Shown in pieces: positions 9,057 to 35,398 of a stretch of DNA of 64,000 bases. The DNA comes from Neocallimastix lanati (nom. inval.). Its lineage: Eukaryota; Neocallimastigomycota; Neocallimastigomycetes; Neocallimastigales; Neocallimastigaceae. A program made the translations under genes and the position numbers. Below the pieces are notes generated by a model, which saw only the letters and a list, made by a program, of their open reading frames with translations, was not told the origin of the DNA and made no database searches. The DNA is taken from NCBI GenBank assembly GCA_016946835.1, contig JACVTC010000056.1:998001-1062000 (forward strand), written 5' to 3'. Numbering within the stretch: position 1 is the stretch's first letter; every line of letters begins with the position of its first letter.

Positions 9057-10076
9057 TTAATAAAGAATTTTCATATACGATTTATTGTATTTTTCTTTGA
9101 CATAATTATCTAACATTTTTATATTTTTTTTTAATCTTGAGGGGTAATTTGAATCTTTATAGTTTGAGTATGCATTTATTGTATTTAATTTTGATTGCTT
9201 ATATAACGTATTACCATCTATTGAAAAACATCTTTTATATCTATTACCTGTAACTAATAGTGCATAGGAATATACCATATCACTTTGCCACTTTACATCA
9301 CTTAATGTTGTCAATATTAAATTATTATATATATCATCTAAATAATTACTATAAAATCTTTTACTAGTCAATGTAAATGGTCCACTATGTAAATATAATT
9401 TACTTTTCATTCTATTTGAAAATCCAACAATTGGGAATAATTTATTATATTTAAGATAGGTTTTATACATTTCCTCAATATAAAAATTTGGATATTCAAT
9501 GTCATCATCAATAGATAAAACTAGATCATTGGGAAAACGATTCATAGTTGGAATTATTTTTTTAAAAACTGTAGTATTTTCTTTAATCCAAAAAATTTCA
9601 AATAATTCATTTCTTTTGACTTCCTGCACTAACTCTTCAGGTAATTCATTTTCTTTATTTGGAAATTCTTCTTCTGAAAGATTTAGAATTATTTTTGATG
9701 GCAATAAAGTTTGTTTCATCATTAAGTCAATGGTATGTTTACAATTTTGAATTCTTTTAGTCCAAGATGTAAATGATACATAAATTTTATCATCTAATTC
9801 ATTATTTGTATGAATTTTTCTATTCTCCAAAAATTTAATCTCATTTTCAGAAATTTTATTATTCTTGAAAATTTTATTATCATATGATATACCAAAAGAA
9901 ATACATTTTTTACAAAATTTTTTTAACTTTCCATTTTGGATTGAACATCTTTTTTTACATTGTAATGATAATTCCTGATTGCTTAAATTTTTTTCTGATA
10001 AAGAGTAGTTAAATTTAACAAAAAATATAGTAAAAATTAATATAGTAATAAATGATAATTTATTGTTTATATTCAT
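9057..10076 (-). CDS. Secreted/Golgi GT-A-like glycosyltransferase with Cys-motif leader
   Basis: Intact 339-residue frame. Residues 1-26 form a signal peptide or signal anchor. A four-Cys Lys-rich motif follows (C40, C44, C55, C58; C-x3-C-x10-C-x2-C, core KLKKFCKKC), then a polar linker and a catalytic domain from about residue 98. Features typical of GT-A transferases that resemble bacterial polysaccharide enzymes: VSFTSWTKRI start, QTLLPSKIILNLSEEEFP, and the metal-binding acidic triplet DDD at 190-192 (SIDDDIEYP). The start was chosen because the leader is nearly identical to the SGNH protein at 21889. No intron is needed. Sugar donor and acceptor are unknown; the related domain occurs twice in the gene at 37279. 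It likely acts in the Golgi or outside the cell on a surface glycan. Confidence 0.78.
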   Translation of the reverse strand: MNINNKLSFITILIFTIFFVKFNYSLSEKNLSNQELSLQCKKRCSIQNGKLKKFCKKCISFGISYDNKIFKNNKISENEIKFLENRKIHTNNELDDKIYVSFTSWTKRIQNCKHTIDLMMKQTLLPSKIILNLSEEEFPNKENELPEELVQEVKRNELFEIFWIKENTTVFKKIIPTMNRFPNDLVLSIDDDIEYPNFYIEEMYKTYLKYNKLFPIVGFSNRMKSKLYLHSGPFTLTSKRFYSNYLDDIYNNLILTTLSDVKWQSDMVYSYALLVTGNRYKRCFSIDGNTLYKQSKLNTINAYSNYKDSNYPSRLKKNIKMLDNYVKEKYNKSYMKILY

Positions 10077-10740
10077 TTCGGTTTGTATGTATTATAATTT
10101 AATATTAGGTTTTTTTTTTTTAAATGTAATATGCTTGAATCCATTTGACAATTTATATTTTTTTTATGAAATAAAGTGAATTAAGTTTATAACTGTTTAG
10201 TTTCTAAATTTGAATTTTTTGTAAATTTGTAAATTTATTTTTAACTATGAAATTATAATTAGAACTTTTTGTTAATTTTCAGAATATTAGGTATAAATTT
10301 ATTATTAATTTAAATTAAGATTTAAAACATTCAAAATTTATTTTAATATAAATTATCTTTATTATTTTTAAATAAATTGAATATATTAAATCCATAATTA
10401 TGAAAATGTTTAATTCAAATTGTTTGATTTTTTATTATAGGAAATTTAAATTTTAAATTTAAATTTTTATTATTGAATGTAATTTAAATCATATTAGGAA
10501 ATATTATTCAAAATTTATTTCGTAAGGATAATTTATCTCACTTATATATTTAATATTTCATGATTTTATTCTTCAATTAATATTATAATTTAGATCTCAA
10601 TTTGAGGATTTAAAAATTTCAATTTTATATCTCAAAAAATTTTTTCATATCATTTTTTAACATTAATATTTAATATAATTTCATAATGAATTAATATATC
10701 TTTATTTAAATATTACTTTATTTATTAATATATGCTTTAA
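10077..10740. other. AT-rich upstream region
   Basis: Upstream of the minus-strand transferase gene. Only AT-rich sequence with runs of T; nothing further can be supported. Confidence 0.5.
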
Positions 10741-12290
10741 AAATTGAATGAAGAAAAACATATTCATTTACAAAGCATTTATACATGAATAATATTTATT
10801 AAACTAATTGATTGGTTAATGTAAATAAAAATATGATAAATATATTTTAACACTCCTCCTCAAATGTAACTTCGGTTCAACGTTACATTTATTTAATTTT
10901 GACTGTAATTTTCGGAATTAAAATTTTAAATCCTTAATTTCATATAATAAAGAATTTCTGAATTTTTCCATAAGAGTGTTATTTAAATATTTTGTGAATC
11001 CATCTGCTAAATTATTTTGTGATTGAATGTATTCTAATTTTTTAAAATATTTATTTATTATTTTTCTGATATAAGGAATTCTTATATCAATATACTTTGT
11101 CTTTTGAATAATGGATTGATTTTTGCAGTTGAAAATGGCAGCTTTTTTATCTATTTTTATTTTAATATATTTAATATTATAATATAATTCTTTCATTAAG
11201 TTTAAATACCAAATGCTGTGCTTGCCGCATTCACTTAGACTATAATACTCCGATTCTGTAGTAGATGTTGATATGTAGTGTTGTAGCATGGAAAACCAGC
11301 TAGTTAGTGCGTGGCCCATGGTTACTAAAAAACCAGCCATTGATCTTCTGGTCTTAGTATCTCTTGCAAAGTCGGTATCAACAAAAGCTTCTATTCCTAC
11401 TTTTCTTGTATAGTCTATTCTGTAATTTATTATACATTTTAGATATCTAAGTATTCTAATAACATTATTCCAGTCTTTTATATTAGGATTATTTGCTTTT
11501 CTTGCTGCTTTACTTATTGAAATAAATATCTGGTCTGGTGTATATAGATATATTTAGTAAATTTATTATTACACTTCTGTAAGTAGTTTGATTAAATTTT
11601 ATATTTCTAAGTTTATTGTCTATTATTGGTTTTGTATTTCTTAATGACTTTTTATTTTTCATTTAAATTTTTCTAAAATCTTTTTAATATATCTTCTTTG
11701 ATGTATAAAATATCCGTTTTTGTATTTAATAAATTTTATTTCTATAACGAAACCCTCTTCGCCAATTTCTTTTATTTTATATTTTTTCTTAATATGTTTC
11801 TTTTCCTGCAATAATATATATCATCTATATAAGTACCAACAATACTTAAAATGTTATTATTTTTGTCATTTTTTACATATAAACATGGCTCATTTACCAC
11901 TTATCATTATTCTAAGTATTATTTTTGTTAGTAATTTATTAATTTCTTTGTTCCATTCTCATCCACTTTATTTCAAACCATACATTGCTTTGTTCAATTT
12001 CCAATAGTATTTATTATAATCTGAATAACCTTCAAGGGGTTTCATATATATATCCTCATTTAGTTTGGCATTAAAGTAAGTAGCGTTTCATCAATTTGTT
12101 CTATATTAAACTTATTTTAAGCAGCAATTGAAGTTGATTGAGTCATGCTTTTATGTTGGTACAAAAGTATCATGAAAATCTATTATCAACTCTAGAGTAA
12201 AACCTCGAACTACCAATCTTGCCTTTCTTTTTATTATCTCGCCATTTGTATTTCTTTTATATTTAAAAATCCATGGCATTTTCTGGTATA
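10741..12290 (-). mobile_element. Ty1/copia element remnant A (RT-RNase H and 3' LTR end)
   Basis: Reading on minus, 12290 to about 11350 gives decayed RVT_2-type RT: WIFKYKRNTNGEIIKRKARL, a YIDDI active-site box (about 11830), TRPDIYF. It runs in frame into RNase H (10918-11560) with STTESEYYSLSECGKHSIW, KYIDIRIPYI and ADGFTKYLN. The polypurine tract GAGGAGGAG (10853-10861 on plus as CTCCTCCTC) abuts an LTR start TGTTAAAATATA running left from 10855. Gag, integrase and the 5' LTR are missing; the left end of the nested composite at 12319 cuts it off. Confidence 0.85.
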
Positions 12291-12318
12291 TATTTAATTG
12301 TATTAAATATATTTAAGT

Positions 12319-12528
12319 TTATTAGAAATATAAATATGAAGATATATAATTATATTAATTTAATCCGTAATGATATATATTATTATATTCATGAAAGATA
12401 TGTGAGCAATAATAATAATGAGCTCCATATTACATTAACAATAAATATCATAAAAACGTATAATGTTATATCTAGAAACTGTTCTTATAATTTTATATAA
12501 TAAAAAGAGATTCTTACTTTTCACAGAT
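12319..12528 (+). repeat. LTR (family 2), plus orientation
   Basis: Starts ATTAGAAATATAAATATG, ends GATTCTTACTTTTCACA, and is followed by the probable primer-binding motif GATTAATAGTCTCAACTC. It therefore behaves as a 5' LTR with its body to the right. Homologous to 16255-16435 (same strand) and 13372-13567 (opposite strand). Confidence 0.6.
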
Positions 12529-14279
12529 TAATAGTCTCAACTCAACAGCTGAGTTATCAAATAAAGATAAGTTGAAATAAATAAAATTTAGCATTTTTTT
12601 ATAACTCATTGAAATCAAACTAATAACAATTTATATTTATTATTGCTATCATATCTATTATAGAAACAAAAATAATAATTATTAATATAGTAAATATTAC
12701 TGAACAATTGGAAGAATATAATATTTTATATATAAAATAATTGAATAGAATAAAATATTAAAAACAAATAGAACAAACAAATAATAAAGTAAAACAAATT
12801 TATAAATTTAAAAATAATAATAAAATAAAATCTCAAAATAGAATTAAAAAAAAAAATAATTAAAAAAAAAAAAAAACAAAGAAGTTATAAAATTGCAATA
12901 ATAAAAATAAAACAAATAATAATCAACTATTTAAACTAAGTTGAAAATAATTGATTAAAATAATAATAGTCAACTAGTTTATCTAAATTGAAAATAATTT
13001 ATAATACTAAATAATAAAATTAAATATACAAGAGAATATAAAGAATTATAAATATAATAAAATTATTCTTATTATATTTTCAATTAAAAACTTTTATATT
13101 AATAAAAAATTAAAATTAAATTATTGTAATATTCACACTAATTATAAATATTTAATTAAAGAATTAAATTTTAATACTTATTAATTCTAAAAATTTATAA
13201 CGATTAATTATTATTTTTGGATTGATACATTATAATCCCAGTTAATTCTAACTTTCTTAAAATTAGACTTTAGATAAAGTAAAAATAAACATGACTAAAG
13301 GGAAATATTAAAATATAAATATTTATTAATTTGAATTTTTTATAAAAATATATATTATATTAATTAAATTGTGAAAAGTAAGAATCTTTTTTATTGTATG
13401 AAAATATTAGAACGGTATCTATATATATTTTTGTTCATTTTTATGATATTTATAGTTAACATAAAATGTAACTCATTATTATTCTTATGTCTTATACTAA
13501 TGTATAAAAATATATAACATTACTTCTTTAATTAATATAATTATAAAACTTTATATATATATTTCTAATACTCCTCCTCAAATCTAACTTTAAATGCAAG
13601 TAAGAGTTGAATAAAAATAAAGAAAATATGTTAAAATATATTACAATATAAAATAATATTTTTATTTTTAATGATTATACAAATAATGAATAAGAAAGTA
13701 TATGGAAAAGAGTTATTTTTATTTATAAATTTAATCATTTATTTATATATATTTTAAATTCTAATATTCCTCCTTACTTTTAATTTGGATTGGAGTTATT
13801 ATTTATTACTTTTTTTTTTGTTGACGTAATACTTCAATACCTATAGCATATCATTTTCAACTAGATAAGTAATTGCTATACAAGTAACATCGAAGAAACA
13901 AAATTCTTGTTTCCAACAACAATCAGTCTTACATTAAAATTTTCATATATCTGAAATTAGATTCAAAATACCAAAAGTCTCCTTTCCCGAATTTCCAATA
14001 AGTTATAATTACTAATTACAATTTCGGTTACATTATATGTATATATATATATATATTTTATTTTAAAAATTAATTTTTTTTTATTATTAACTATAATGAA
14101 AGTATTATTATTAAATTCTGTGGTAAAAATTAAAAAATAATAATTTCTAATTTTTATTTATATATTTAATAAAATAAAAATATATTTATTATCAATAGAG
14201 GGAGAGAGAACAATTTTATGAAATTAATAATTTTATTTATTTAAACTTAATAAATATTTTACTAATTTTATATTTCCAT

Positions 14280-15080
14280 ATTATATGCAATTGCTACTAG
14301 TTCGTCTCCATCTTTATTTTTCTTATCAGATGTTCATTCCACAATGAATCAATTTTTTAAATTCTTCATTATTACCTTGTTTATATTCATAGGTTAATAA
14401 GGTCTTATGATTATCTCTTTTATTATTTATCTCTTCCATTGTTCTTCCTTTCTAATTTTTATTTTCATTTTTCTCTTTTATCTTTTTTTGTTATTCAAAT
14501 TCTTTTCTCAGTAATTTAAAGTCTTTTTCTATTTTTTCTTTCTATTTTTTTTCACCTATTCTATTTTCATTAATTCAAAGTCTTTATTTTTTCTTTCTCC
14601 TTAAAGTCTATTTTTATATTTTTTTTTAATTTTATTTCCATTAATTCATTTTCAATTTCAAATACTTTTATCTTCTATTCTTTTATTTATATTAATTTCA
14701 TTAAATATTTTCAAAAAGTATCTGTTTTTGCTGAATATTACTTCAATTATATTTTTCGTATTACAAAATAAATTAATATTATAAATTTAGAATTAATTTC
14801 TGAAATATTATTTAATTTACAATGTGAATATTCTTCCGAAATCACTTTTTCAATATCATTTTCATCAATTATTAATTTTATTCCTTTTTCAATAGAATGT
14901 TCAACCAACAATTTAACTATTTCAATATTTTTTTTATTGAATTAAATATTGGGGTAAATCTTAATATAACTTTATATTTAAATCCAAAATAGTTTTATTT
15001 TTATTAGCATTATCCAATAATAATTTAACCTTTTCAATAGTATTATTATGAAATTTAAACTTATTAGTAAATAATAAAAA
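14280..15080 (-). pseudogene. Ankyrin-repeat protein relic
   Basis: The minus strand reads TIEKVKLLLDNANKNK (about 15040), IEIVKLLVEHSIEKG (about 14920), DENDIEKVIS, then NNEEFKKLIHCGMNI (about 14350) and KLVKYLLSLNK (about 14270). The spacing and the (I/V)VKLL(I/V)(E/N) pattern are those of ankyrin repeats. Multiple stops and shifts. It lies between copies of mobile sequence. Confidence 0.5.
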
Positions 15081-15089
15081 TTATTTATT

Positions 15090-15330
15090 TATATAAATAA
15101 GAATCATTGTCAAAGCCCATTTCAAGATAAGTTTAATAATACTTTTTTGTTAAATACATCCATTTCACACAGGAATTACAAATCTATTATATTTCTTTTG
15201 ATATTTGTGACTTTATATTTTAAATTAGTTTGTATGGATTATCTGAATATAAACTCTCCATTATTGTTATTGATATATAAATAAGTTTTGATATGTATAA
15301 ATACATCATTAAAAAAAATATATATTTTAA
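15090..15330 (-). repeat. Decayed copy of the 41.36-41.52 kb repeat
   Basis: On the minus strand this carries ATAATGGAGAG..., GTAATTCCTGTGTGAAATGG and ATTAAACTTATCTTGAAATG in the same order as the plus-strand words at 41358-41505 (ATAATGGAGGAG, GTAATTCCTAGCGTGAAATA, TTAAACCTAGCGTGAAATGG). Noncoding repeat family. Confidence 0.5.
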
Positions 15331-16435
15331 ATAATATGTTTCGAGATTTAACAAAAAAATAGATTAATAAATGGTAAATTAGAATTTTATAAATATTATA
15401 TATTATTAATAATATAATTTTTTTTTTAAAAAATTTTAAATTATTATTAAAATTGATGGATTGGATTAAATATTATTGATTAAAGTTTAACAAAAATAAT
15501 TAAATTTATATTATTGATTGAATTTAATTTAATTTTAATTTAATAAATCATTAATATTATTTTTAATGAATTGATATAATTGGACATTTAAAAATTATTA
15601 TAAATTAAATTTTGAATTGTATTAAATAAAAATGAATATTATAATAAATTCAAATTTTATTAAATATAAAAGTTCTGTTAAAATAATTTCTTGGATACTC
15701 TTATTTTAATTTATTTGTTGAACCTTATTTGTTAAAGTTTTTGTGTAAAACTTTAATTATTAATATTTTATTAAACACCAAAAATATTAAGAAATTTTTA
15801 TTATAATATTTTATACATAATATTTAATATTTAATTTTATTTATCTTAATTTTATGATTATAAGTATATCAAAATTACATTTTATATTTTTTAATTAAAT
15901 TTAATAATATTCTATTTTATAATAAGCTATATTAAAGTCATTATTAAATTTTTATTTTTTTATATTCTAACAAAATTAAAATAAAAAAATAATGTTGTGA
16001 AATTTCTGTTTTGTTAATTAATTTTAATTAAAAATATAAATACTTGTTTTTTATTTTATTCTATTTATTTGTTTTATATTAAATGTTATATCTTCGCAAT
16101 TGTTCTGTAATATTTGCTTTATTAATAATTGTTAGTATTTTTGCTTCTATAATAGATATGATAAGAATAATAAAAATAATTTGTTATTAGTTTAATTATA
16201 ATGAATTATAAAAAGATATTATATTTTATTTATTTCAACTTAGAGTTTTATTATTGTATTATTATAAGGAGTATTGTTATATATTTTAATATATTCATTA
16301 AAATATGTAACCAATAATAATAATAAGCCATATACTATGTTTAATATAAATACAATAAAAATGTACATCATTATGTAATGATACCATTCTAATATTTTTC
16401 ATATAATGAAGAGATTCTTATTTCTAAAAATTCAG

Positions 16436-17140
16436 GATACTTAAATGTGAGCTTTCAGTAATCTCTAGTTTTTACAAATTTATTTTTCTTATAAGCCTTG
16501 ATTGATTTTCCTACCGTAGTAAAAGTCTGTCATTGCTTTTTTAATAGAAATTTATCTAATTTGTGTGTAAAAATTTTACTTTCTTTATCACATGAATGAC
16601 GATAACCTGATATATCTTTAAATAAAGCGGAGATAATAAATTTCTTTTTTTTTTTTTTCCATTATTCAAAGCACCTTTATTGTGTAATCATATAATTCAC
16701 TTAAAAGTAAGAACGTTAAATTCCTTTGAAACAGAATAAAGGGATGTTAAGCTATTCCCTTTGAAAAATCCCTAAATCTATTATAATCCTGTATTAACTA
16801 GTTATGGTATACTTCTCGTTCTTTCCTTGTTCGACCCATGTAAAGGTGCTTAATACAAAACATGTTCAATTACTACAGAGGAAAATAACATTCTTTTATA
16901 AGGGATTCATTACAACGATAGTATGTAACTTCTGGAAAAACAGTCCATATCATTGGAGATAAATTGAATTAATTAAAAATAAAATGTTTACACTAGTAAA
17001 TAGTAAATAATTAATAGTAAATAGTAAAAATAATAAATAATAATGATATAAATAAAATACAATATTATAGTTTCTTTGTAAAGAACCTTTTGAAATATCT
17101 TTCATATTAAAGAAATTATATTTATTTATATCTAATGTAA
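16436..17140. other. Coding-like but unidentified interval
   Basis: Base composition is less extreme than in the flanks. The minus strand has short peptide-like stretches such as MGRTRKEREVYHN (about 16840) and ISALFKDISGYRHSCDKES (about 16600), broken by stops. It may be an old transposase or retroelement piece; I cannot name it. Confidence 0.25.
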
Positions 17141-17262
17141 GGATTAATTTAACTTATTCAAAAAAAAAAAAAAATACTTATTAAATAATGATATAAAGCG
17201 TTTTATAAATTTATTTAGTAAGTATTTTTTTTTTGAGTAAGTTTCAATTAATAATTAGATTA
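17141..17262. repeat. Long imperfect inverted repeat (hairpin)
   Basis: The left arm (AACTTATTC, poly-A, TACTTATTAAAT) is matched by the right arm (ATTTAGTAAGTA, poly-T, GAGTAAGTT), with about 25 bases between. The arms are roughly 40 bp. It could be a MITE-like element or an intergenic hairpin. Confidence 0.65.
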
Positions 17263-18073: not shown

Positions 18074-19234
18074 TTATTCATTAAGTATTTTCACTAAAAT
18101 TTGATCATAATAACTATTATCTGTAATATCTCCTATGTTCTTACTTCCATCTTTTACTTCATTAACATATTTGTTTTCTATTTTAATTTTATGTGTAGCA
18201 TTTCTTAAAAACCATTCATACGAAATATCTGCATGGCCTATGTCAATAGCTTGGTATCCAACATTATGTAAGTCATAAGCTAATATTGTGGCAGTAGGCC
18301 CTAAAGCTATTAAAATTAATTTATCTTTATTAATTTTTAAAGCTTCATTGTATATTTTTTCATATACATCATATGCATTTATTGCAGGACATAATATTCT
18401 CTGTATTGTTTTTGTATTATTAAGTAAATCATTATTGATTCCGAATCTTGATTTTTCTCCTTCAATTATAACTATATCCTTTTTATCCCAAATTAATTTT
18501 AATTTATCTATATATTTTAATACATCACTACGATTATTATTAAACCAGTAAAATCTTGACATTTGAGTATTACCATAAATTTTATTAAAATTTAATAATT
18601 TTATTAATTTATATTGATACATTGAAATATAGTTTTTCCAAAAATTATTATTATTTTTTACCATTTTTAATTTATCAGGTATTGCAATAATTAAACCTTC
18701 CTTATTACTGTTTAAAATATCTGCCAATCTTTTGGACATATTATTATCAAACTTTTGGAAACGAATCCCTTCGCCAAAAATAAGATTAAATTCTCCATCA
18801 CCGAATCTGGAAATTGATTTGTTATTATTTATAATATAATCCAATGTTTCCTCATTTGATAAAATATTTAATGAACTTAATTTTTTTAAAGCTGGACATC
18901 TACTACTGCAATCTAGTCCTTTCTTTCCTTTTAAATTTAGACATTTTTTACAATATTTGCTATATTTCTTTTCATTTAAAGAATTATTTACTGTATGTCG
19001 TTTATTTCTTGAAATATTATTTTTGTTTATTGTTGATTCAAGATCGCAACATACCAAATTATCACTTTCTAGGCATCTTACATTATTAACAATACTATCT
19101 TTATATTTATTTTTATTAATACAAATTCCTGTATTACCTTTACTATAACATTTATCACATAAAGTTAATATAGGCAACAATAATATAAGAAATTCTAGGA
19201 TACTAAATGCATAAAAATTTTTGTTTTGTAACAT
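18074..19234 (-). CDS. GT-D fold (DUF1792/SP_1767-type) glycosyltransferase, secretory
   Basis: Intact 386-residue frame. Residues 1-25 are a hydrophobic signal sequence. A Cys-rich segment follows (C26, C29, C38, C54, C62, C63), then a second four-Cys segment (C95, C98, C109, C113; C-x2-C-x10-C-x3-C). The catalytic domain runs from about 120 to 370. It has the family's hallmark SRFGDGE at 142-148, thought to bind metal and nucleotide, and the C-terminal block ALGPTATILAYDL...AIDIGHADISYEWF. GT-D enzymes known from bacteria act in O-glycan extension of surface serine-rich repeat proteins and in polysaccharide synthesis. A secreted eukaryotic form suggests transfer from gut bacteria plus an added leader. 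The substrate is unknown. Confidence 0.82.
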   Translation of the reverse strand: MLQNKNFYAFSILEFLILLLPILTLCDKCYSKGNTGICINKNKYKDSIVNNVRCLESDNLVCCDLESTINKNNISRNKRHTVNNSLNEKKYSKYCKKCLNLKGKKGLDCSSRCPALKKLSSLNILSNEETLDYIINNNKSISRFGDGEFNLIFGEGIRFQKFDNNMSKRLADILNSNKEGLIIAIPDKLKMVKNNNNFWKNYISMYQYKLIKLLNFNKIYGNTQMSRFYWFNNNRSDVLKYIDKLKLIWDKKDIVIIEGEKSRFGINNDLLNNTKTIQRILCPAINAYDVYEKIYNEALKINKDKLILIALGPTATILAYDLHNVGYQAIDIGHADISYEWFLRNATHKIKIENKYVNEVKDGSKNIGDITDNSYYDQILVKILNE

Positions 19235-20330: not shown

Positions 20331-20486
20331 AAAAATATTTGAAAGAAAAAATTCTATTATATAAAATATTTTGAAAAATTCTATTAAGAATGAATAAAAT
20401 TATATTACTTATGATTTAAATTATATTAAACTTAATTTAATTCAGAATTATATATAAATTTTTCTAGTTTTCCTTTTTAAACTGAT

Positions 20487-20999
20487 TTATTTATTAATAG
20501 AATTGAGTAAAATATTTATATCCTTTGCTAAGAAAATATTTCCTATTTCCGAAATGTGGGTAAAATCTCTCCAAAAAAATTTTATATTTTCTTTTTTCAT
20601 ATTTCCTTCTTGAGCATTCGTACAGTCATCAAAAGTATTTAATTTACAATATTTCATTATATATGTATAGAATGAATTTGTATCATAAATAATAATATTA
20701 ATATATGGAAATTTATCATAAAATAATTTAGCCTTTTTTTTAATTAAATCGTTGAAAAATGAAATATTATATGTATAATAATTGTGTCTACCTTTTGAAT
20801 TAATAGGTGCATTATCTAATGGTGAAATATTTGATATCAATAAATTTCGAGCCCCAAAATTATATAATTTTTCAATTTGTGCAAACATAGAATCGACTAT
20901 TTTTGTAATAATAATATTAATATTTTCAATTTGATATTTATTAATAATATGAACGTCATTAGAGCCAAACTGAATAGAAAATAAAGTTTTATTTAATAA
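20487..20999 (-). pseudogene. SGNH/GDSL hydrolase fragment, N-terminus missing
   Basis: The open frame starts after a stop at about 21002, with the first Met at 20888. It carries FSIQFGSNDV (block III-like G-x-N-D), a helix FAQIEKLYNFGARNLLIS that matches the other SGNH copies, and the C-terminal block FFWRDFTHIS with the Asp-His pair of block V. The block I GDS serine, the signal peptide and the Cys motif are absent upstream, so this is a truncated gene or one lacking its 5' exon. The closest relative in the window is the gene at 21889, head-to-head about 890 bp away. Confidence 0.65.
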
Positions 21000-21813: not shown

Positions 21814-21888
21814 AACAAAAGGATTCAAAAATATTACTCTATTATACAAATAGTTTTCATTTTGAAGTTATAGCATATATATAGAAAG

Positions 21889-23033
21889 ATGAATATAAAC
21901 AATAAATATTCATTATTTACTATATTAGTTTTTATCATATTATTTTTAAAATTAAATTATGCTTCTACTAGAAATATATCGAAAAACAAAAGACTATTAT
22001 TACACTGTAAAAAAATATGCTCGAACAAAAATAATAATAGAAAACTTAAAAAATTTTGTAAAAAATGTCTTCCTTTAGATATTTTACATAAGAATAAAAG
22101 TCCTGAAAATAATAAAATATTTGAAAATAACGAAAATTTTGAAAATAATAAAATTTCTTATTATAATATTCTTTTTGAGAACAAAAATTCTTCAATAATA
22201 CATTTATCTAATTCAACAAAGTTTGACTACCATAAAATTGAAAATTTAATTGTATTTGGAGATTCAAATTCATCTGTTGGTACAAATTATACTGATATGA
22301 CATACACTGGAGTGAATCATTCTGGCGGTAAAAATTGGCCATTATATTTAAAAGATTTTAATAAAATGAAGTTATGGAATTATGCAACCCTAGAGCCCCG
22401 ATCTATGAAAAATTATTTAATGATTCCAGAGACTTAAAAACGCAGTGTGATTATTTTTATGAAAATATGTCAAAAGGAAAGAAATTTTATAATACATGGA
22501 ATGAAAATAATTCTATATTTGCATTTTGGTTTGGTACAATTGATATAGGATTCAGAAATCATAATTATAAGACAGTTGAGGAACTCGCAAAAAATTTTTT
22601 TAATTTAATTGAAAGGATGTATGATTACGGTCTAAGAAATATATTAATACTTGGAGCCCCTCCTTTGTATAGAATACCAAGTCACAGAAGCTTCACTAAA
22701 TGTAGAGACATTTCGGATGAAAATTGTATCAAATTTTTAAAAAATGAAGTTTTAACATTTAATAATGAAATAATGGCAAAATCGAATATATTTTTTAATA
22801 AACATAAAGATATAAATCTTATTTATTGTAGTACTGTTGATATATTTGAAAATATTATATCAAATTGTAATAAATATAAATTTAAAGATTGCATTAATAC
22901 ATGGAGAAGTAACAAGAAGAATAATGTTAATGACTATTTCTGGGCTAATTCTCATTTATCAGATTTAGCAAATAAAATTTTAGCAAGAGATATTAATGAA
23001 TTACTCAGTTCCTTAAATAAATCGACCTCCTAA
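21889..23033 (+). pseudogene. Secreted SGNH/GDSL hydrolase with Cys-motif leader, one frameshift
   Basis: The first frame (21889-22437) has a signal peptide almost identical to that of the transferase at 10076-9057, the four-Cys motif (C40, C44, C57, C60; core KLKKFCKKC), an Asn/Lys/Glu-rich linker and the catalytic start NLIVFGDSNSSVG (block I Ser at about 126), followed by GKNWPLYL and KLWNYA. The frame is then lost. The second frame continues from about 22396 with APIYEKLFNDSRDLKTQC, FAFWFGTIDIG (block III position), a helix ERMYDYGLRNILILG and NDYFWANSHLSD (block V D-x-x-H region), ending at 23033. One small indel at 22386-22398 would explain the break; it could be a real mutation or a sequence error. 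Likely an acetyl- or acyl-esterase acting on glycans. Confidence 0.72.
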
Positions 23034-24733: not shown

Positions 24734-27327
24734 ATGATTTGTGATTCTTTTATATTTAATGAATATGAAAATGAAAATCAAATAACCAATAATGAACTGA
24801 ATAAATTTTCATTTAAAAAATACTTGAATAGACCTTTAAATGTTTGTTATATAGGAGCTGGTTATGTTGGAGGTACATCAAGTAGTGTAATGGCTTATAA
24901 ATGTCCGATTGATGAAGTAATTGTCACTGTTTGTGATGTAGATACTGAAAAAATCAACTCTTGGAATTCAGATATTGTAAATAATTATAAAATTGAAAAT
25001 TAATATATTATATTTATATAAAAAAAATATATACATTAATATATATTTAAATAAATTTAAATTACTTAATAATATCCTAATTATAACTTATTTTATTATT
25101 TGATATTTATAAGCTTCCAATATATGAACCTGGATTAGAAGAAATTGTAAAAGATAGAAGAGGAAAAAACTTATTTTTTACTTATAACTTCGATAAAGCT
25201 ATTTATTCAGCTGATATAATATTTATTTCTGTTGGAACTCCAACAAAAAAAAGAGGAATAGGTGCTGGTCAAGCAGCTGAACTTTCGTATGTAAAAATAT
25301 TAGAAAAGACTAATAGAATATTTGTTTATTTGAAAAAAAAATTATTTAATTATTATAAAAAATATTTTATAATATTACAAAAATAAATTTTTTTTTAAAA
25401 ATTGTTAAAACTAATTAAACATATATACTAATTAAGTTATTAATTTTATTGTTTAATATATATTAAATAATGTATTTATACTTAATTACTTTTTTATTTT
25501 ATTGATATGTTTTTAAAGGTTTATTGAAAAAGCTGTTAGAAAAATTGCTAGTTTATCAAGAAATTCAAAAATTATTGTAGAAAAATCTACTGTGCCATGT
25601 AGAACAGCTGAACATATTAGAGCTATTTTAAATGCAAATCAAATTAAAAATAAAAATAATGATAGTAATTTTTGATCAATTAATTTAGTAAATAATTTTT
25701 AAAAATTAATAATAAAAATTATTACTAATTTATTTTTTATCTATAATATATATATTATAATTTTATATATTATTAAATAAGATGAAAAAAAACTATTACA
25801 AGAAAACATTAAAAATATAGATATTCATTACTTAAGTATTTCTCGTTCAAGTAGTAATTCTACTTTAAATGAAGAATTTTCAAATTCGGAAAATCAAATT
25901 TTAGTAGATAATAATACCACAGAATCATCTATACATTTTGAAATATTATCAAATCCTGAATTTCTTGCGGAAGGAACAGCTGTCAATGATATTCTTAATC
26001 CTGATAGAATTTTAATTGGTGGTTTACAAACAAAAGAAGGAATTGAAGCACAGGAATTACTATCTAAGCTTTATTCTTATTGGGTTCCTGAAGAAAAAAT
26101 TATAAAAATGGGTCTCTGGTCAGCTGAATTATCAAAATTAGTAAAAATATATATTTATATATTTAATAATTAATATAAATTATAATTTTTATTTTGTATA
26201 AAAAGTGAAATATTAAATATTTGTTTTTTTAAAAAAAAATTATTAAAAAACAATTTATATTCAATTATCTTTAAAGACAGCAAATGCTTTATTAGCTCAA
26301 AGAATTTCTAGTATTAATTCTTTAAGTGCTTTATGTGAAGAAGTTGGATCTGATATTCAAGAAATATCACATGCTTGTGGTTTAGATTCGAGAATAGGAC
26401 CTAAATTTCTTAATGCTAGTGTTGGTATGAATAAAGCTAAAACAAATAATAATAAATAAATGAAAACTAATTATAAAAATTATATAATTTATGATGATTT
26501 TATTTTTAAAAGGATTTGGAGGAAGTTGTTTCAAAAAAGACGTTCTAAATCTAGTATATCTTTCAAATTATTATAAGCTTCCGGAAGTTGCGGAATATTG
26601 GAATCAAGTAATAACCATAAATGAGTATAGAAAGTCAAGATTTGTAAAAAATATTTTTAATAAACTATTCAATACAATTTCTGATAAAACAATAACGATA
26701 TTTGGATTTTCTTTCAAAAAGAATACAAAAGATACCAGGTAAATCAATATGATTATCTTTTAATTTGATTTTATTATATTAAATATTCAATAAAATATTT
26801 AATATTTAAAATTATGATTAGGGAATCTCCTGCTATAACTGTAGTATTATCATTACTAAGAGAAGGAGCTTTCATTAAAATATATGATCCAAAAGTATCA
26901 GAAAAGCAAGTTAAATATGAAATTATGGAAAATTGTGATATTCAAAATTATAATGGTAATTAGTAAAATTAAAAAAAAATATATTATATAAAAATTAAAT
27001 ATTTATATTATTATATATTTTATTTTTATATTAATTTACAAATCATATTTGTAATTGTCTGGTTTTTTCATAAATATTATTATTGAATATAAAGAATATA
27101 TTTCCAGAACTGAAGTTTGTTCATCATGTTATGAAGCTGCTGATTGTTCTAATGCTATAGTAATTTGTACTGAATGGGATGAATTTACTTTAATAGATTA
27201 TAAAAGAATATATAATAATATGATAAAACCTGCATTCATATTTGATGGACGTTTAATTTTAAATCATAAAGAATTAAAGGAAATTGGATTTTTCGTTGAA
27301 GCTATTGGAAAAAAATTAAACTTTTAA
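24734..27327 (+). CDS. UGDH: UDP-glucose 6-dehydrogenase, 8 exons
   Basis: Oxidises UDP-glucose to UDP-glucuronic acid with two NAD+. Exons that keep one frame: 24734-24976, 25114-25286, 25519-25664, 25782-26140, 26277-26424, 26513-26738, 26822-26955, 27095-27327. Total 1662 nt, 553 residues. All introns are GT-AG, 88-232 bp. Motifs: Rossmann GAGYVGG at 41-47, [28 protein letters not shown], the hinge block [12 protein letters not shown], catalytic Cys about 362 in [36 protein letters not shown]. It is longer than usual (animal enzymes are near 490 residues) because of an N-terminal extension of about 35 residues and a Ser/Asn-rich insertion of about 50 residues before LSNPEF, coded at the start of exon 4. 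Cytosolic; feeds glucuronosyl-, xylosyl- or uronate-containing glycans made by neighbouring genes. Confidence 0.93.
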
Positions 27328-27984
27328 TAATTTATTTTGATATTTATTTTAACATTTAAATTAATTGGTCATATAAACAAAAATTGATTGTCTTTTTAAA
27401 TATATATAAATATCAAATAAAACCATAAATTTATATATTTATTTAAAAAAAGAGTTTAATTTATTTAATAACATTCAAAATATTATTGTTTTATACAATA
27501 TAAAAATCTCCTTTTGAATTATATTAATTTTAATATAATATATTATTATTTAAATATTACTTATTTAATACATTTCATAATAAGAAATATTAAGTTATTA
27601 TACAAATAATTCATTATATTAAAGAAATTCAGGATTTTATAAAATTAATAAAGATACAGTTTAATACTTTATACTATTAATAAACATGTTTAAATATGTT
27701 TAATTATATTTGTTACTAAAAATTTTATTTTATTTATTTATTACTATTATATAATGTATATATACTATATTTTACTTTTAATATTTCGCTTCATATCTGA
27801 CTGTGATATCTTTAATAATTAGATTTGTTAGTAGTATTAATTTTCAAGTTTTATTATAAGTGGACTATTATTTTTATTCCTAAATTGTGCATCTAGATTT
27901 TAGTAAATCAATAATCAAGATTATTTTCTGACTTTATTTATTGTTAAGATTTATTAAAACTTAAAATTATTTATGAAAATTTAA
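27328..27984. other. AT-rich interval after UGDH
   Basis: Contains the UGDH 3' flank. No gene seen. Confidence 0.5.
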
Positions 27985-28150
27985 GAAAAAGAATCTCTTT
28001 ATTATATAAAAATATTAGAATTGTATATATGAATATAAAAATGTAAATCCTTTAATTAATATAATTATAAAACTTTATATTTATATTTCTAGCGTTCCTC
28101 CTTAAATCTAACTTTGGATAAATGTTAGAATTGAATAGAAATTTAATATT
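27985..28150 (-). repeat. LTR end and polypurine tract (family 2)
   Basis: 27985-28092 matches the LTR family at 13372-13567 (AATTATAAAACTTTATATTTATATTTCTA). It is followed by a polypurine tract, AGGAGGAACG on the minus strand, then TAGATTTA as in other elements here. It behaves as the 3' LTR of a minus-strand element whose body lies to the right. Confidence 0.5.
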
Positions 28151-28431
28151 AGTATTACAATATAAAATAATGTTTTCATTTTTAATATGATCATACATTG
28201 AATGTATTATAAAGTATGTAAGCTAGAGTTATTTTTACATATAAATTTAAATAAATATTTATAGATATTTTAAAATAATAATAAAGTGTTAAAAGAATTA
28301 AAAAGATTGAAGAATACATTATTTTGAAACTTCATTATTTGCGATTTCAAGGGTACCAAGAGTTGGGTAAGAACATATTTATTAATATTATTTGAAAAAC
28401 CATTATTAAACCTTATTCTTATATAAATCAT

Positions 28432-29465
28432 TTAATACATTATTATAATTATGCTATATATCATAAATATATTTATCATAAATATATTTATATTGAGTTT
28501 ATTTGATTTCAAAGGCTTTTTATTAACATAATGAATTATTTTTTCATTTTTTATTTGTTTATTATTTTCATAAAATACTACTTTCACAGTTTTATAAATT
28601 TTAAATATTAAAGTTACATTTATATTGTTTTCAATGAAATATACTTGCATAATATTTTGATCAGGAAATCCATTATTAAATGGAAATGATTTATTATATT
28701 TATATGTTAAATTTAATATTCCATTAATATGCTCCTTATTTAACATATTTTTATTTATAAATACTACATCATAATTTATTTATCTCCTTTTTTATTAAAA
28801 ATTTTATTCCATATTTTCAACTAAATATTTATGATTTGTAATGTATATTATATTTTCGTTTCTATTAAATAGCTCATATATATTTGATTTCACTAGGGTA
28901 TAAGAATCCAAATATAAAATTTTATCATGATCTATTAAACCAAAAATCTCAAATTTTAGTAAAGGCGGTATAAACCTTCTTGGTTAAAATTTCATAATTA
29001 CTTTATCATATTGACGTATCTATTTTCAAATATTTTACATTCGGAAATTTAGATAAATATTCTTATATTTAATTCATTTGATAAAATGCTCTATTATTCA
29101 TTACATATTATTAGAATATCTCCATTAAACGAATTATTATTTTTATAAAATAAATATTACATTGTTTCAAAATTTACAATGTATTTGTCATTTACTATTG
29201 TATATAAACAATATTTATAATTTATTAATTTAAGTTATACATCCAATTTTTTTTTTTTTTTTTTTTTTTTTTTGAAATCAGGAATTTCGCTAATGAATTT
29301 TTTTTTAAAGTTAAATTGTAACTTTTATCATTATAATGAAATACCATTTGAATCTATAATAATATTATTGAATAATTATAAATTATGAAGGATTGACGTA
29401 ATTTTTTATTTTCAATAATATTAAAACATTTTTGCCAAGATTCATCGGATGAATGTTTACTACAC
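28432..29465 (-). pseudogene. GT8-family glycosyltransferase relic
   Basis: Minus-strand frames in order: a leading segment SWQKCFNIIENKKL (about 29440) and FHYNDKSYNLTLKKN (about 29330); the GT8 start YTIVNDKYIVNFETM (about 29200) with FNGDILIICNE; PNVKYLKID; RRFIPPLLKF; HDKILYLDSYTLVKSNIYELFN (about 28930-28880), where the usual D-x-D has become D-S-Y; and the C-terminal part NGFPDQNIMQVYF and KIIHYVNKKPL (28432-28746). Several stops and shifts separate them. Intact GT8 enzymes are retaining galactosyl-, glucosyl- or galacturonosyl-transferases. The right end joins copia RNase H at about 29465, and a poly-T run (29251-29273) interrupts the relic. Confidence 0.68.
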
Positions 29466-32400
29466 TCGTCTAAACTATAGTATTTTGATTCTGTTGTAGA
29501 GGTAGAAACGCATCGTTGAAGTTTTGAACACCAACTTGCTGGTGTATTCCCTATACTAAGGATATATCTAGTCGTTGACCTTCTTGTTTTTTCGTCACCG
29601 CTAAAGTCTGAGTCAATATAAGCTTCTATGTCTCATTTCCTTGTGTAATTCAGTCCATAAGTGATTGTATCTTTCAAGTACCTCATTATCCTTAGAATAT
29701 TTTCCCAATCCTCCATGTTTGGATTATTTGATTTTCTAGCATCCTTGCTCACAGGGAAAACTATATCTGGGCGGGTACAAATGGCCAAGTAAAGTAGTAT
29801 TCCTATTGCAATTCTGTATAATGTTTCATTACATTTGATACTTCTAAGTTTTTATTTTTATTGGTTTCATATTTTTAATTGAATATTTATTTTTTATATT
29901 AAATATTTCTATAATTTCTAAAATATATCTTTTTTGATTCAAAAAATATCCATTAGTATGTTTTATAAATTTAATACCAAAAATGAATTCAACATTACTT
30001 ATTTCTTTTATTTTAAATTTATTTTTTATTTGTTTTTTAACTAATATAATTTCACCTTTATTTCCTGCAATTAAAATGTCATCAAAATAAACTCCAAGTA
30101 TGCATGTGATAGATTTCCTCTTACTTTCTTTCTCATATAGACATGGTTCGCTAAATAATCTTCTTAATCCAATTTTAATAAAATAATTGTTTAGTTCTTT
30201 AAGCCATTTTGTTTCAATCCATATATTGCTTTGTTTAGTTTTAAATAATTTTTATTGAAATCAGGATGTCATTCTAGAGCTTTTATATATATTTCTTATT
30301 TTAACCTTGCATTGAGGTATGTTTATTGATGTCAATTTGTTTTATATTAAAATTATTTTTGGTGGCAATTACTGTTAATATTCTTATTGAATTGTGATTT
30401 ATTGTTGGTGCAAAGGTGTCATAGTAATCTATTCCTTGCTTCTGAGTATATCCCTTTGCCACTAGTGTTGCTTTTCTTTTTACTATTTTACCTTCTGCAT
30501 TTTTCTTATATTTAAAGATCAATCGACATGAAATTAAGTTTGCCCCTTCTGAAATATTTTTGACGGTTTTGAATACTTCTAAACTTTTCATATTATTTAA
30601 TTCTTCTTTTACAGCATCAATCCATTCCTTTTTATCTGGAAGGTTAAAAATTTTCTTATAAGTTGTTGGTTTAATAATATTTATTTTTGGTCTTTTATTT
30701 GAAATAGTATTATCATTGCTATTAATTTTATTTTCGAATTTATATATATATTTATTTGGTTATTTTTATTAACTTATTACGAAACTTTTTTTGAAATGAA
30801 AAAGAATACTTTACAACCAAATACTTTAAGTTTTGAATAATAGAATTTAGAATTATAAATAATTTCGTAGGGGATTTTATTATTAATTCCTTTATGTGGA
30901 AGTAAATTGTGGATGAAATTTGCAGTATTAATTGCATCTTCCCAGAAGTGATGGCTTAATTTGACATCATTTAATAGTGCTTTGGTAGCATTAAATAATG
31001 TGACATTTAGACATTCCACACGACCATTTTGTTGAGGATTGTACGGTATTGTAAATTGATTATGAATGCCGTATTGTAAACAAAATTCGCTGAAGTATTT
31101 ATTTTTAAATTCAGTTCAATTATCTGAAAGAATATATTTGAATCTGGTATTGAATTGATTCTTAATTTTAGTGAACTAAAAATAAAATTAAGTAAATGTA
31201 TCATTTTTATCTTTTAAGAAAAGAACCCAATTGAAACGAGAAAAATCATCCAGTATAAAAAGAAAATAAGAATTTCCGTATAATGAAGTTGAAATTGGAC
31301 CTACCAAGTACATATGTATGAGTTCAAATATATGTTTTGATTTATTTATAGCTGGTTTGTATAGTTTACTTTTTAACTTGAAACTGCAGTATAATGGACA
31401 TTTGATGTGAATATTAATTTTTAGTAATTTAGTTTTTATATTATCGATGTTGAAATGTGCAGGTCTTCGATGCCACAAGCTGAGTTTTTCAGATGATTTT
31501 AAATTTACGATATTAATTTCATTATTTGATGAGTTAAATATTTGAGTTGAAATCTATACTTTAAAAGTATTTGAATTATTGGAATAAGAGTTATATATTC
31601 TTTTTCTATTTTTATCATAAATTATAGCACATGGTTTATTATTAATTGTATTAAAATTTATTTTATAATTTTGCTGAGTTAGTTGATAAACCTTTATTAA
31701 ATTTTTGTTAATTACTTTTTTATTTAATTTTCTTTTATTTGTGTATTTAAATTTATTGTTATATTTATATTTTTTATATTTATTATTATTGTTATAATTA
31801 TTTCTAAAAAGACATTCATTATAATAATGATCCATTTTCCCACAATAATTGCATCTGCCATTTTTCCTTTTTGTATTATGTTTTTTAATATTTTTTATAT
31901 TATTTTAGTTTTTGTTGATGTTTTTATTTTTGTTTTTGTTAATATTAAATATTATATTTTTGGTGGAGGAAATAATTGATTCTTTAATGTTGGATAAATC
32001 TATTCCTGAAATGTCTCTTTTAATATATTTACTGCAGTCATTCCATGTTGAAAATGAAATACATTAATCCATCTTAAATTTTCTGGTAGGTATCTATTTA
32101 ATATGCTTACTTTAGAACTGTCACTAATTTCCGAATCATTTTTTGATTTTTCGTTGAATAAATTTTGCAAAAAGTTTGCTATAAATATCGATATGTCCTT
32201 ATTGTCGAACTTTAAGTTTTCGATTTTGTTTGTTAATTCGATTTTTCTTTGCTCTTTACTCTTGAGGAACGATTCTTTTAGAAGCTTCCAGATTTCGTAG
32301 GCTGACTTTTCGTTTCCTTCAATAATTGAGTGAGTCTATTCACCAAGGCTATTAATTATTATCAATTTTGTCGTACTATTATTATCAATGTCGTTTATTG

Positions 32401-32755
32401 TAGTTTTTTTTTACCATATACGAAAGTATCATCGAACTAGTCTTTGATGTACTCATTAATATTTCCTTTTATATCTTTCTTTTTTATTTTTTTAATAATC
32501 GGAATAAGGACTTATTTAGTGAGTTTATTTATATTTAAAAAATACAACATGTTCTTCCTCCATGTTGTATAATTTTCTGTGTTTAATTCGGTAACTCTTA
32601 AAGTTTTCCGAATAATTAAAAGTGATTGTATTCCGAATATTATTATTATTGTCGTCAATAGTGATTAGTTGAGGTTGAGGTTAAGATTGATTTTGGATTT
32701 GATTTTGAGTTGAATTTTGACGTAGATTATTAAAGTTTCTTCTTCTCATTTTAAA
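29465..32755 (-). mobile_element. Ty1/copia element B, decayed gag-pol
   Basis: Minus-strand order is copia-like: gag from about 32750 (MRRRNFNNLRQN, then FIANFLQNLFNEKS), CCHC zinc knuckle CNYCGKMDHYYNEC (about 31850-31810), GAG-pre-integrase WHRRPAHFNIDNIK (31478), integrase core ELIHMYLVGPISTSLYGNSY with LDDFSRF (31390-31230), FWEDAINTANFIHNLLPHKG (30940), RT (EVFKTVKNISEGANLISCRL, KRKATLVAKGYTQKQGIDYY at 30591-30301) and RNase H ending in ECSKH at about 29465. Stops and shifts throughout. RNase H is cut off and passes straight into the GT8 relic. Confidence 0.87.
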
Positions 32756-33403
32756 ATAATTTAAATTTTATTGTTAAATATTTAATTTGGTTAAATTTTT
32801 TTTTCTGATTATTTGAGTATAAACTAAATAATATGATTATTATAAGAATAAAATGAAGAATGTTTTCTTTATTTATAGTAGTTTTTAATATAAATTATAT
32901 TATTATTTAATAAGTTATTATATTTATGATCATAGTTTATATTAAAAGTAAATTAATATTTATAGAGTAATTAAATTTAATAATTTATTTATAATCAACG
33001 TAAATATTATTGCTATTATTAGTATTATTAATTTCATTTATAATTAATTTATATAGATTAATTACTTATCTATATGATTATTATTGACTTGCTCTTGCAT
33101 TGATATTATTCTTTTATTTTAATATAACTCACTTTTATAAATATAATTTATATTAAAAAGTTATTTTTATTATTTAAATCAAATGATAATTTTTTTACAG
33201 TTTAAACTACTAGTAAAATATATTTTTATTATTTCAACTTGAAATAAAATATTGGATGAGATTGGTTTATATTATTTTTGTTTATATTATATTTTGATTT
33301 AATATTTATGAATATTAGATGACATGAGTTATGAAATTTAAATTTATAATTAATTTATATTTCGATATATTTATGACTGCTTCAATAATTTCATCTAGAT
33401 ATA

Positions 33404-33435
<32 letters not shown>

Positions 33436-34524
33436 TTAATAATTTATTAATATTTTTTTAATTTTAAACATGACCGTATAAATTTATTATTAGTTGATTT
33501 TTAATTATTTATTTTCATCTCAATATTAATATATCAGTTGACATAGTATTTATTATATTAATTAAATTTAATTAAATGGTTTATTTATGTTTATTTAATA
33601 ACATTCCTCATTGATTTCCTTACTAACCAAATTATTTTGTACAGTTCTTTAGTTATATGAATTTTTATTTGGAGTTTCTTTATTTTAATTATAGAGAAGG
33701 TAATATATATTTAAATATAAAATTAGTATTTTTATATCAATTTTAATTAATATTTATAATAGATGTTATGTTTAATCTTAGCTTTTATTTATGCTCAACC
33801 GAAGAGTTGAGATTCTTAATCTACTAAAACACAAAAATGGAAATTAATTTTAATATATAACAAAGTATTTTATTATAGTAGTATTTTATTATATTTTAGT
33901 AATGTTCATGATGGATATTATTTATTCAGTAAAATTTACATCTTTCTATACTTTTCTTTAATATATAATATTATTAACATATTCATTATAACTATTTATT
34001 TAATTTATATTTAATATAAATAATGTCATGTGTATATTAAAATTTTTATTTCTTTATTTTAGCAATATTTAATTAAAAAATTTTTATAAATCAATAAAAT
34101 AAATTATATTTTTATTAGCATTTATAAGCATTTATTTTTTTAAATATTAAAATTTTTGAAATTAAAATAATTTTATAAAAATATTAGATATAAAAAAATT
34201 ATGTTTATATATATGAATATCTATTTTAAATCTTTTACATATTTTTCTATAATAAATATTTACAATATTATGATATATCATATAATTTATTAAAATACAT
34301 AATATTTTTAATTTTATTTTTTTTTTTATGAAAAAAAAAGTTTTTTTTGAAAAATAATTCAAATTAAATACATTCGATATATGAAATATGAAAAATATTT
34401 TTGTTATCTATTCTTTATGATCAAAAATATATAAGTAATTACTTGAAGAAAATTCTTTTTCTAATCGATATTCAAAATTTATTAGATACTCGTTAACTTT
34501 CATTTTATGACTATAAAAAAATTT
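32756..34524. other. AT-rich interval with possible 5' end of element B
   Basis: 33785-33823 carries, on the minus strand, GATTAAGAATCTCAACTC, the probable primer-binding motif seen after other LTRs in the window. It suggests that a 5' LTR lies to its right, though I cannot match it to 27985-28092. Short hydrophobic frames such as 34162-34362 look like noise. Confidence 0.35.
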
Positions 34525-35398
34525 CTATATATATAATTGGTCTATATGTTTGTAAAACTCCTTTGCTCCCTGAAGTACCTTTAATTCATGTCCTTCTACA
34601 TCATTTTTTATAAAATTTATTGTATCTTCATCTATTCTTATATACTTATCTAATTTCAAATTTCCATTTAAATTTTGTTTTATTTGGGTTACTCCAATGT
34701 TCCAAGGAATATAAAATGAAATAGTTCCATTGATCTTTATATCACTTAATCCTATATTGTAGATTTTCATTTTATTGCTTTATCGATTAGTTCATTAATC
34801 TCTATATTCTTCTTCAAAATCTTAAATGTATCAGGTACTGGTTCAAAGGAATAAATTCGCTTAGGAAATGCTTTTAAAGACAAATAGAATAATTACCTAT
34901 TTTTTGCTTCTATATCTAAAATTATTTCATTTTTATTTATAAAGGATTACAATTCTAATAGAATATTAATTTCATAAAATGTTCAATTATCTACAATGAT
35001 GCGTTGAATAGTATCAACAGGATAATTTAAAATTTTGCATTATCTACGATGACAATTTCATTTTCATTTACTCCCTGAAATTTTTATTCTCATGGTCATT
35101 TTTATTCTCTTTTATTTTATTTTTATTAAAAGCTTTATTTTCATCAGTCAATTCTAAAATAAGGTACTTTTTACAAAATCTTTTTGATTTTACCTTTTAA
35201 AATAACATTTTTTCTTGCATCGTCTTAATAATCTTGAATTATCTACAAAATTATTAATAAAAAAGTTAATATTTATTTTTTAAATCTATTTAAAATATTA
35301 ATTAAATTTTATACCATTAGAAATAGCGTTAGTCATATTTATATATAATATAGAAATAATTAATAATGTAATAATTAAAAATTTATTATCCATATTCA
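34525..35398 (-). pseudogene. FkbM-type SAM methyltransferase relic with Cys-motif leader
   Basis: From 35398 on minus: ATG with a signal sequence like that of the other leaders (MNMDNKFLIITLLIISILY...NAIS), then an apparent intron (GTATAA...TTTTGTAG, about 35317-35240), then LLRRCKKKCYFK and, after a one-base shift, KIKRFCKKY, a decayed copy of the four-Cys motif. A linker follows, and then FkbM signatures: EIILDIEAKN (degenerate SAM-binding motif), NYSIC, KAFPKRIYSFEPVPDTFKIL (about 34870-34820), YNIGLSDIK, and NDVEGHELKVLQGAK (about 34600). Intact FkbM enzymes O-methylate sugars or polyketides. Several stops rule out function. Confidence 0.75.

Follow-up and report, generated by a model that had tools for sequence, protein, structure and literature searches.

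A Four-Cysteine Module on Enzymes of Eight Families

A basic segment some 30 residues long with the cysteine pattern C-x3-C-x10/12-C-x2-C is attached to enzymes of eight families in the fungus Neocallimastix lanati, and we are close to certain that it is a real, transferable module. We examined a 64,000-nt stretch of contig JACVTC010000056.1 (the window; C511:998001-1062000 in our numbering), whose G+C content is 10-30% in 2-kb steps and in which an original prediction had seen one four-Cys leader on several glycan enzymes. The spread of the module was assessed with protein queries against this one genome (199 Mb, 762 contigs), and all own-genome counts are lower bounds. The partners are SGNH hydrolases (PF00657), GT92 (PF01697), GT8 (PF01501), GT10 (PF00852), GT-D (PF08759), FkbM (PF05050), PF11316 and a GT-A enzyme without a Pfam family. 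Within this genome the segment is thus joined to a range of catalytic domains, the outcome that the original prediction had named as support for a transferable module. Several of these families share the GT-A fold, so "different families" describes the partners better than the "unrelated" enzymes first proposed.

Counting broken copies, the module is present at 33 places; 32 came from the module searches, and an FkbM relic in the window was added by hand. Sixteen are on SGNH hydrolases, two at the N-terminus of GT92 proteins, five at the C-terminus of GT92-GT8 proteins and one at the C-terminus of a GT-A-GT8 protein. The remainder comprise one GT-A protein, two PF11316 proteins, three FkbM proteins (the relic among them), two FkbM-like proteins and one GT10 protein. 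Pfam was run on selected module proteins, with E-values of 2.8e-11 for SGNH (L019, PF00657), 9.7e-17 and 4.4e-16 for GT92 (L012, L020), 4.9e-9 for PF11316 (L024), 2.7e-21 for FkbM (L060), 6.5e-6 for FkbM-like (L064) and 5.7e-42 for GT10 (L065); the family calls also drew on reading the frames. Viewed from the catalytic domains, 16 of 37 joined SGNH places have a module upstream and six of eight GT92 places have one. The PF05050 search returned three FkbM places, two with a module and one, at the left edge of the window, that is just a short piece.

The module stands at both termini. C-terminal copies are carried by the GT92-GT8 proteins L028-L031 and by the GT-A-GT8 protein L008/L035, while the GT92-GT8 copy L032 (C114) is known only as a 189-aa piece. 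Pfam recognised GT8 in L008 (1.7e-12) and GT92 alone in L030, where the GT8 part was assigned by eye from L008. The GT92-GT8 proteins whose start was read have an extra, diverged version after the signal peptide (five such places listed), which reads C-x2-C-x11-C-x2-C in L096 and lacks the first Cys in L095. GT-D versions were found in the window and in five further long relatives among 12 matches; in one of these, L091, the first module Cys is a stop codon. The 33 include neither these N-terminal versions of GT92-GT8 proteins nor those of GT-D. L089, which matched by chance with a single Cys, and C390:873419, a broken FkbM-like piece that was not read, are likewise excluded.

The places are clustered. 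Thirty pairs lie within 60 kb of each other against 0.32 expected, and 24 of the 33 have a neighbour; these figures and the counts are inflated by recent tandem or haplotype-like duplicates (C75/C649, C102/C212, C114/C212, C212/C511), and the null was a set of 5000 random placements along a single line as long as the genome, with a maximum of four pairs.

Two further features of these families were seen along the way. L016 and L017 (C102:109299-111287 and C212:216688-218676) have one leader followed by two tandem SGNH domains with an Asn/Glu-rich repeated linker. The GT92 places without a detected module lie at C75:224825-225475, within an 834-aa open reading frame (ORF) that also matches the GT-A enzyme, and at C390:707764-708378.

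Similarity Between Families and Register of the Cysteines

The modules are homologous across families. We scored 45 cross-family pairs drawn from 14 leaders, including L033 and L034 with their two missing Cys. Behind the signal peptide the pairs had a mean score of 110 and a minimum of 64, against a mean of 32 (sd 7) and a maximum of 62 in 900 composition-preserving shuffles. Residues 1-26 of the leaders gave a cross-family mean of 73 and a minimum of 54, against a shuffled mean of 24 and maximum of 44. Leader similarity between families nearly equals that within families, and the remainder of the proteins drops to noise. The leaders are less alike than the "near-identical" signal sequences described at the outset, with a mean identity of 54% between families and 58% within them.

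In a 16-sequence alignment, which omits L091 because of its stop codon, the four Cys are invariant, with two or three residues inside each pair, and GT-D falls in the same order as the others. A smaller, three-row MAFFT alignment places GT-D in another register, so the GT-D link depends on the larger alignment and on position. The GT-D relatives L092, L093 and L094 read C-x2-C-x10-C-x2-C, whereas in L090 and in the window copy the second pair is spaced by x3. With these three relatives, the same-order reading is the simpler one. The spacing drifts in one order among paralogues, and we therefore reject the mirrored arrangement originally proposed for GT-D, as well as a circular permutation.

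For a list of 27 modules, we set aside L091 together with L033 and L034, which lack two Cys. Spacing is C-x3-C...C-x2-C in 20 of the 27, and six begin C-x2-C. Mean net charge is +8.7 (range 2-11), and the conserved residues in two alignments are Cys, Lys and Leu.

Transfer of Gene Heads and of the Module Alone

The module is mobile, and the DNA around it points to two modes of movement. In 73 cross-family pairs the upstream 300 nt scored a mean of 94 against 70 for shuffles, while downstream DNA scored 95 against 93. The strongest upstream scores (up to 172) involved GT92_C90 and the GT-A gene of the window. When four cross-family pairs were compared window by window, the DNA match ran from 150-450 nt upstream to approximately +225 or +300 nt, spanning signal peptide and module, and then fell to the unrelated baseline (48%, maximum 54%).

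The SGNH gene L019 is a direct case of head swapping. Its head is 77-93% like that of L033 from -600 to approximately +300, and its body is 96-98% like that of L014 from +375, which puts the switch between approximately +225 and +375. In the SGNH tree L019 groups with L014, and L033 groups with L026 and L034.

In all five genes read as spliced (L060, L061, L064, L065, L069), a phase-1 intron lies exactly between signal peptide and module; this exon boundary was read from the sequence, with splice sites taken from GT-AG and frame. The GT10 gene has a second intron that leaves the module on a 127-nt exon with the frame kept. When the C-terminal copies L028, L030 and L035 were compared with intronless leaders, 13 of 18 alignments started at nt 75-105 after the ATG, and all three alignments with L060 started exactly where its exon 2 begins. 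Because most of these alignments begin after the signal peptide, the part moved to the C-termini would most simply be the module without its signal peptide. We looked for leftovers of an SGNH domain downstream of the C-terminal modules and saw none that was convincing: leader similarity in L028 stops within about 25 codons of the stop codon, and what follows the modules of L030, L031 and L035 amounts to weak pieces (E 0.001-0.006).

Selection, Cysteine Use and Predicted Fold

Codon position 3 is the least conserved in the modules; 15 of 17 loci entered this codon-position comparison, two being dropped by its fixed spacing. Among 20 modules, cross-family proportions of nonsynonymous (pN) and synonymous (pS) differences were 0.21 and 0.42, and pN was the lower of the two in 143 of 158 pairs between families and in 30 of 32 pairs within a family. 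These modules were chosen by their four-Cys pattern, which favours low pN, and with the Cys codons masked the contrast weakened to 0.25 against 0.38, with pN the lower in 123 of 158 and 29 of 32 pairs, respectively. Sites are few (about 27 codons), the pairs are not independent, and the codon comparison excludes L033 and L034. At this level, the data suggest purifying selection on the module as protein.

L033 and L034 keep the second and fourth Cys on open SGNH ORFs. Their changes differ and their nearest heads, L019 and L026, have all four Cys, so the losses of the first and third look independent. These two cases hint weakly at disulfides between Cys 1 and 3 and between Cys 2 and 4, and suggest that the cysteines serve in disulfides rather than in binding metal. 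An AlphaFold2 model based on two window sequences predicts helices at residues 5-20 and 27-39 joined by a short loop, with a predicted local distance difference test (pLDDT) score of 68-77 over residues 11-40. At the start of the GT-A relative L097 (C90:840050-840650) stand two half-modules in tandem, HCLKC and YCLKC; they may represent a route of module growth or of decay.

Copies in the Window

The GT-A-fold glycosyltransferase-like protein (9057..10076, minus strand; 339 aa) has a signal-peptide-like start followed by a C-x3-C-x10-C-x2-C module at residues 40-58 (9903..9959, minus strand). Its assignment comes from ORF reading and from Foldseek on a low-confidence AlphaFold2 model (mean pLDDT 54), which matched GT-A enzymes at E 5e-5 with weak template modelling scores of 0.24-0.36 of the query. 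The DNA upstream of this gene (10077..10376, minus strand) resembles that of several SGNH and GT92 genes, scoring 92-131 against 63-77 for shuffles among the rows listed, and in a window-by-window comparison with L014 the upstream similarity covers approximately the nearest 150 nt. About 840 nt upstream of the gene is an RNase H-like fragment, presumably Copia-type from its sequence (10918-11340, minus strand). A retroelement this close to a captured gene head could have aided head transfer.

The SGNH hydrolase gene contains one frame change, near 22374-22437. Its first part (21889..22437, plus strand) encodes a signal-peptide-like start, a C-x3-C-x12-C-x2-C module (22006..22068, plus strand) and the start of the catalytic domain, the remainder of which continues in another frame (22374..23033, plus strand). 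The four-Cys leaders described for this gene and the GT-A gene were thus confirmed, each after a signal-peptide-like start. A second, leaderless SGNH fragment lies at 20487-20888 (minus strand) and by eye is nearest to L011.

The GT-D glycosyltransferase of the SP_1767 family (18077..19234, minus strand) has a long N-terminal addition. Its catalytic part passes TIGR03728 (297.3 bits against a cut-off of 290.75) and PF08759 (278.9 against 27 bits). The module version C-x2-C-x10-C-x3-C occupies residues 95-113 (18896..18952, minus strand), and the alignment with the PDB homologue 4pfx begins directly after it, at residue 114 (4pfx chain residue 4). The 4pfx structure is a GalT1 enzyme, which we take to be of streptococcal origin. 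A further Cys-rich stretch at residues 26-63 (19046-19159, minus strand; seven Cys in the related L090) resembles a rusticalin-type repeat by eye, with no Pfam family above cut-off.

The FkbM methyltransferase relic (34411..35399, minus strand) matches the L060 FkbM protein over its body in two pieces (E 8e-51). The PF05050 search of the genome did not list it, and neither did any of the genome-wide module searches list its module copy. A probable 72-nt phase-1 intron (35243..35314, minus strand) separates the signal peptide from the module, which is broken by a frame change and has Tyr for its last Cys (35164..35219, minus strand). Through the first two Cys, the relic leader scored 109 against that of L060, compared with a mean of 25 and a maximum of 45 in 500 shuffles. 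The leader claimed for this gene has the same layout as the others, in a broken copy that starts at 35399 instead of 35398.

Elsewhere in the window, 37279-39138 (plus strand) encodes a 619-aa protein with two GT-A-like halves and a signal-peptide-like start; it has no module and no Pfam family.

Proposed Function and Alternatives

Little is understood of how eukaryotes position newly acquired soluble enzymes within their secretory pathway. We regard it as nearly an even call that the module retains or docks glycan-modifying enzymes at a common partner in the lumen, and that it has spread by two modes of transfer. The Pfam-named partners are glycan transferases, methyltransferases and SGNH hydrolases. 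In all five leaders examined, hydrophobic runs are at most 16 residues long, a length more in keeping with a cleaved signal peptide than with a type II membrane anchor. A common lumenal partner would explain why one tag is found on many soluble enzymes, at either end.

On this proposal, the module would be a small, positively charged and probably helix-loop-helix unit held by its four cysteines and acting in the lumen of the secretory pathway. The signal peptide would carry the enzyme into the endoplasmic reticulum, and the module could then bind the common partner. This might be a receptor or a scaffold, or else the anionic surface of a membrane or glycan. Soluble glycosyltransferases, methyltransferases and SGNH hydrolases would in this way be held in one compartment, where they may build or decorate one class of glycan. 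Spread would have occurred partly through whole gene heads (approximately 150-450 nt of upstream DNA, signal peptide and module) that moved onto other coding sequences and gave new enzymes the same expression and address. In the other mode, the module part alone would have moved to the C-terminus of GT8 fusions, and such transfer may also have put copies before bacterial-type domains such as GT-D.

Several findings weigh against this proposal, in addition to the duplicates that inflate the counts and the selection of the modules used for codon analysis. No partner or scaffold came to light, though no search was aimed at one. No module was found at 21 of 37 joined SGNH places (several truncated or distant) or at two of eight GT92 places. 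Degraded copies sit on intact ORFs, as in L033 and L034 without the first and third Cys, and the GT-A relatives L097 and L099 retain half-modules only. The module model was built on two sequences, with a mean pLDDT of 58, and the 1-3 and 2-4 pairing hinted at by the Cys losses conflicts with an antiparallel hairpin, in which 1-4 and 2-3 would pair. Concerning transfer, two PF11316 leaders are little above shuffles upstream (88-94 against 70-78 among the rows listed). Five of the 18 C-terminal alignments with intronless leaders and two of the three with L064 extend further upstream, and those with L065 have no clean exon boundary, two of three starting inside the exon.

The four-Cys segment might instead be a passenger with little function of its own, carried along when heads were duplicated for their promoter and signal peptide. 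That upstream DNA travels with the leader agrees with this explanation, as does the existence of several copies without cysteines on intact ORFs. The weaker contrast between pN and pS after masking raised our confidence in it and lowered our confidence in retention or docking. However, pN stays below pS in most cross-family pairs even without the Cys codons, no signal peptide or promoter accompanies the C-terminal copies at their site, and the four Cys persist in diverged GT-D, FkbM, FkbM-like and GT10 copies. We consider a pure passenger unlikely.

The module could also act in the manner of a carbohydrate-binding module, its basic patch binding an anionic or other glycan and bringing the enzyme to the growing chain. 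A net charge of up to +11 and partners that, where named by Pfam, plausibly act on glycans are in keeping with such a role. The conserved Cys, Lys and Leu, however, form no conserved aromatic binding face, and the module has no Pfam match; substrate binding is in our view quite improbable. Less probable still is a structural zinc knuckle, with the four cysteines binding the metal. The C-x2-C-x10-C-x2-C spacing of three GT-D copies would suit it, but a lost metal site should not retain the same two Cys, as L033 and L034 do after separate losses, and the pattern in these two cases speaks against zinc. Chance similarity between Lys-rich low-complexity tracts behind ordinary signal peptides, for which an AT-rich genome with common Lys and Asn codons offers scope and which the original prediction gave, with restriction to paralogues, as a refuting outcome, has next to no probability left and is refuted for intact copies, since the lowest cross-family score (64) exceeds the highest shuffled one (62) and DNA homology continues into the upstream region.

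These findings have practical consequences. With one portable segment on eight enzyme families and a recombinant head-swap gene at hand, the retargeting of captured enzymes is directly testable. Any module-bearing protein becomes a candidate member of a glycan pathway, and the segment might serve as a short tag with which to bring enzymes together in the lumen.

Comparison with Known Systems

The prediction that no named domain has this form was upheld in Pfam: a composite module peptide matched no family up to E 10, and the native proteins had none over the module above cut-off. Against PDB sequences, one module profile matched nothing and a second matched only 12 residues of ribosomal protein L40e (E 1.9). 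Pattern matches in prokaryote genomes and viral contigs (123 and 212) yielded no confirmed homologue, a weak negative for a 37-aa query. A single-protein scan returned no bacterial relatives of GT-D; its patterns were poor and such relatives are present in PDB, so this negative has little weight. No publication describing the module was found by title or abstract start, in a search that most subscription literature lies outside.

The closest tested parallel is Tox1 of plant type 2 prolyl 4-hydroxylases, which are lumenal enzymes; this Cys-rich domain directs GFP to the Golgi and no longer does so once its Cys are altered (PMC11275109). Like this ShK/BgK-like domain, the module is small, Cys-rich and non-catalytic, on probably lumenal enzymes that have a signal peptide and apparently lack a membrane anchor. 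Tox1 as described there has six Cys, a C-terminal position and one enzyme family, whereas the module has four Cys, eight families and both termini; our two alignments contain four conserved Cys columns only, which sets it apart from Tox1 by description.

Rusticalin-type repeats are almost only eukaryotic and joined to prokaryote-typical domains in 98 of 124 proteins with a domain prediction, with a case in Neocallimastix californiae (PMC7379824). They share with the module the joining of a small Cys-rich unit to prokaryote-type domains. They have conserved Gly and Pro, usually several copies, and bacterial cell-wall hydrolases as partners in about half of those proteins (PMC7379824). The module is instead Lys-rich, usually single, and found on glycan transferases, methyltransferases and SGNH hydrolases; neither alignment has a conserved Gly or Pro column, and by description it stands apart from these repeats as well.

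With plant alpha-hairpinins, antimicrobial peptides of the form C-x3-C-xn-C-x3-C (PMC11591084), the module shares four Cys, a predicted helix-loop-helix and a basic character. Only one of the 27 modules (MT_L064) fits the C-x3-C-x4-20-C-x3-C pattern given there (PMC11591084). Unlike alpha-hairpinins, the module mostly has C-x2-C as its second pair and is fused to enzymes.

The dockerins of anaerobic fungi are non-catalytic modules that gather different enzymes, with a different Cys pattern and on plant-wall hydrolases. Our module resembles them as a non-catalytic unit on various enzymes and differs in lacking a Pfam match. It is possible, if rather doubtful, that the module, as a basic four-Cys hairpin, gives all enzymes of one glycan assembly line the same lumenal address, and that it thereby acts as a Golgi counterpart of the dockerins. 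A foreign enzyme captured by a head with its promoter would then immediately be co-expressed, secreted into the lumen and docked at a single receptor or scaffold.

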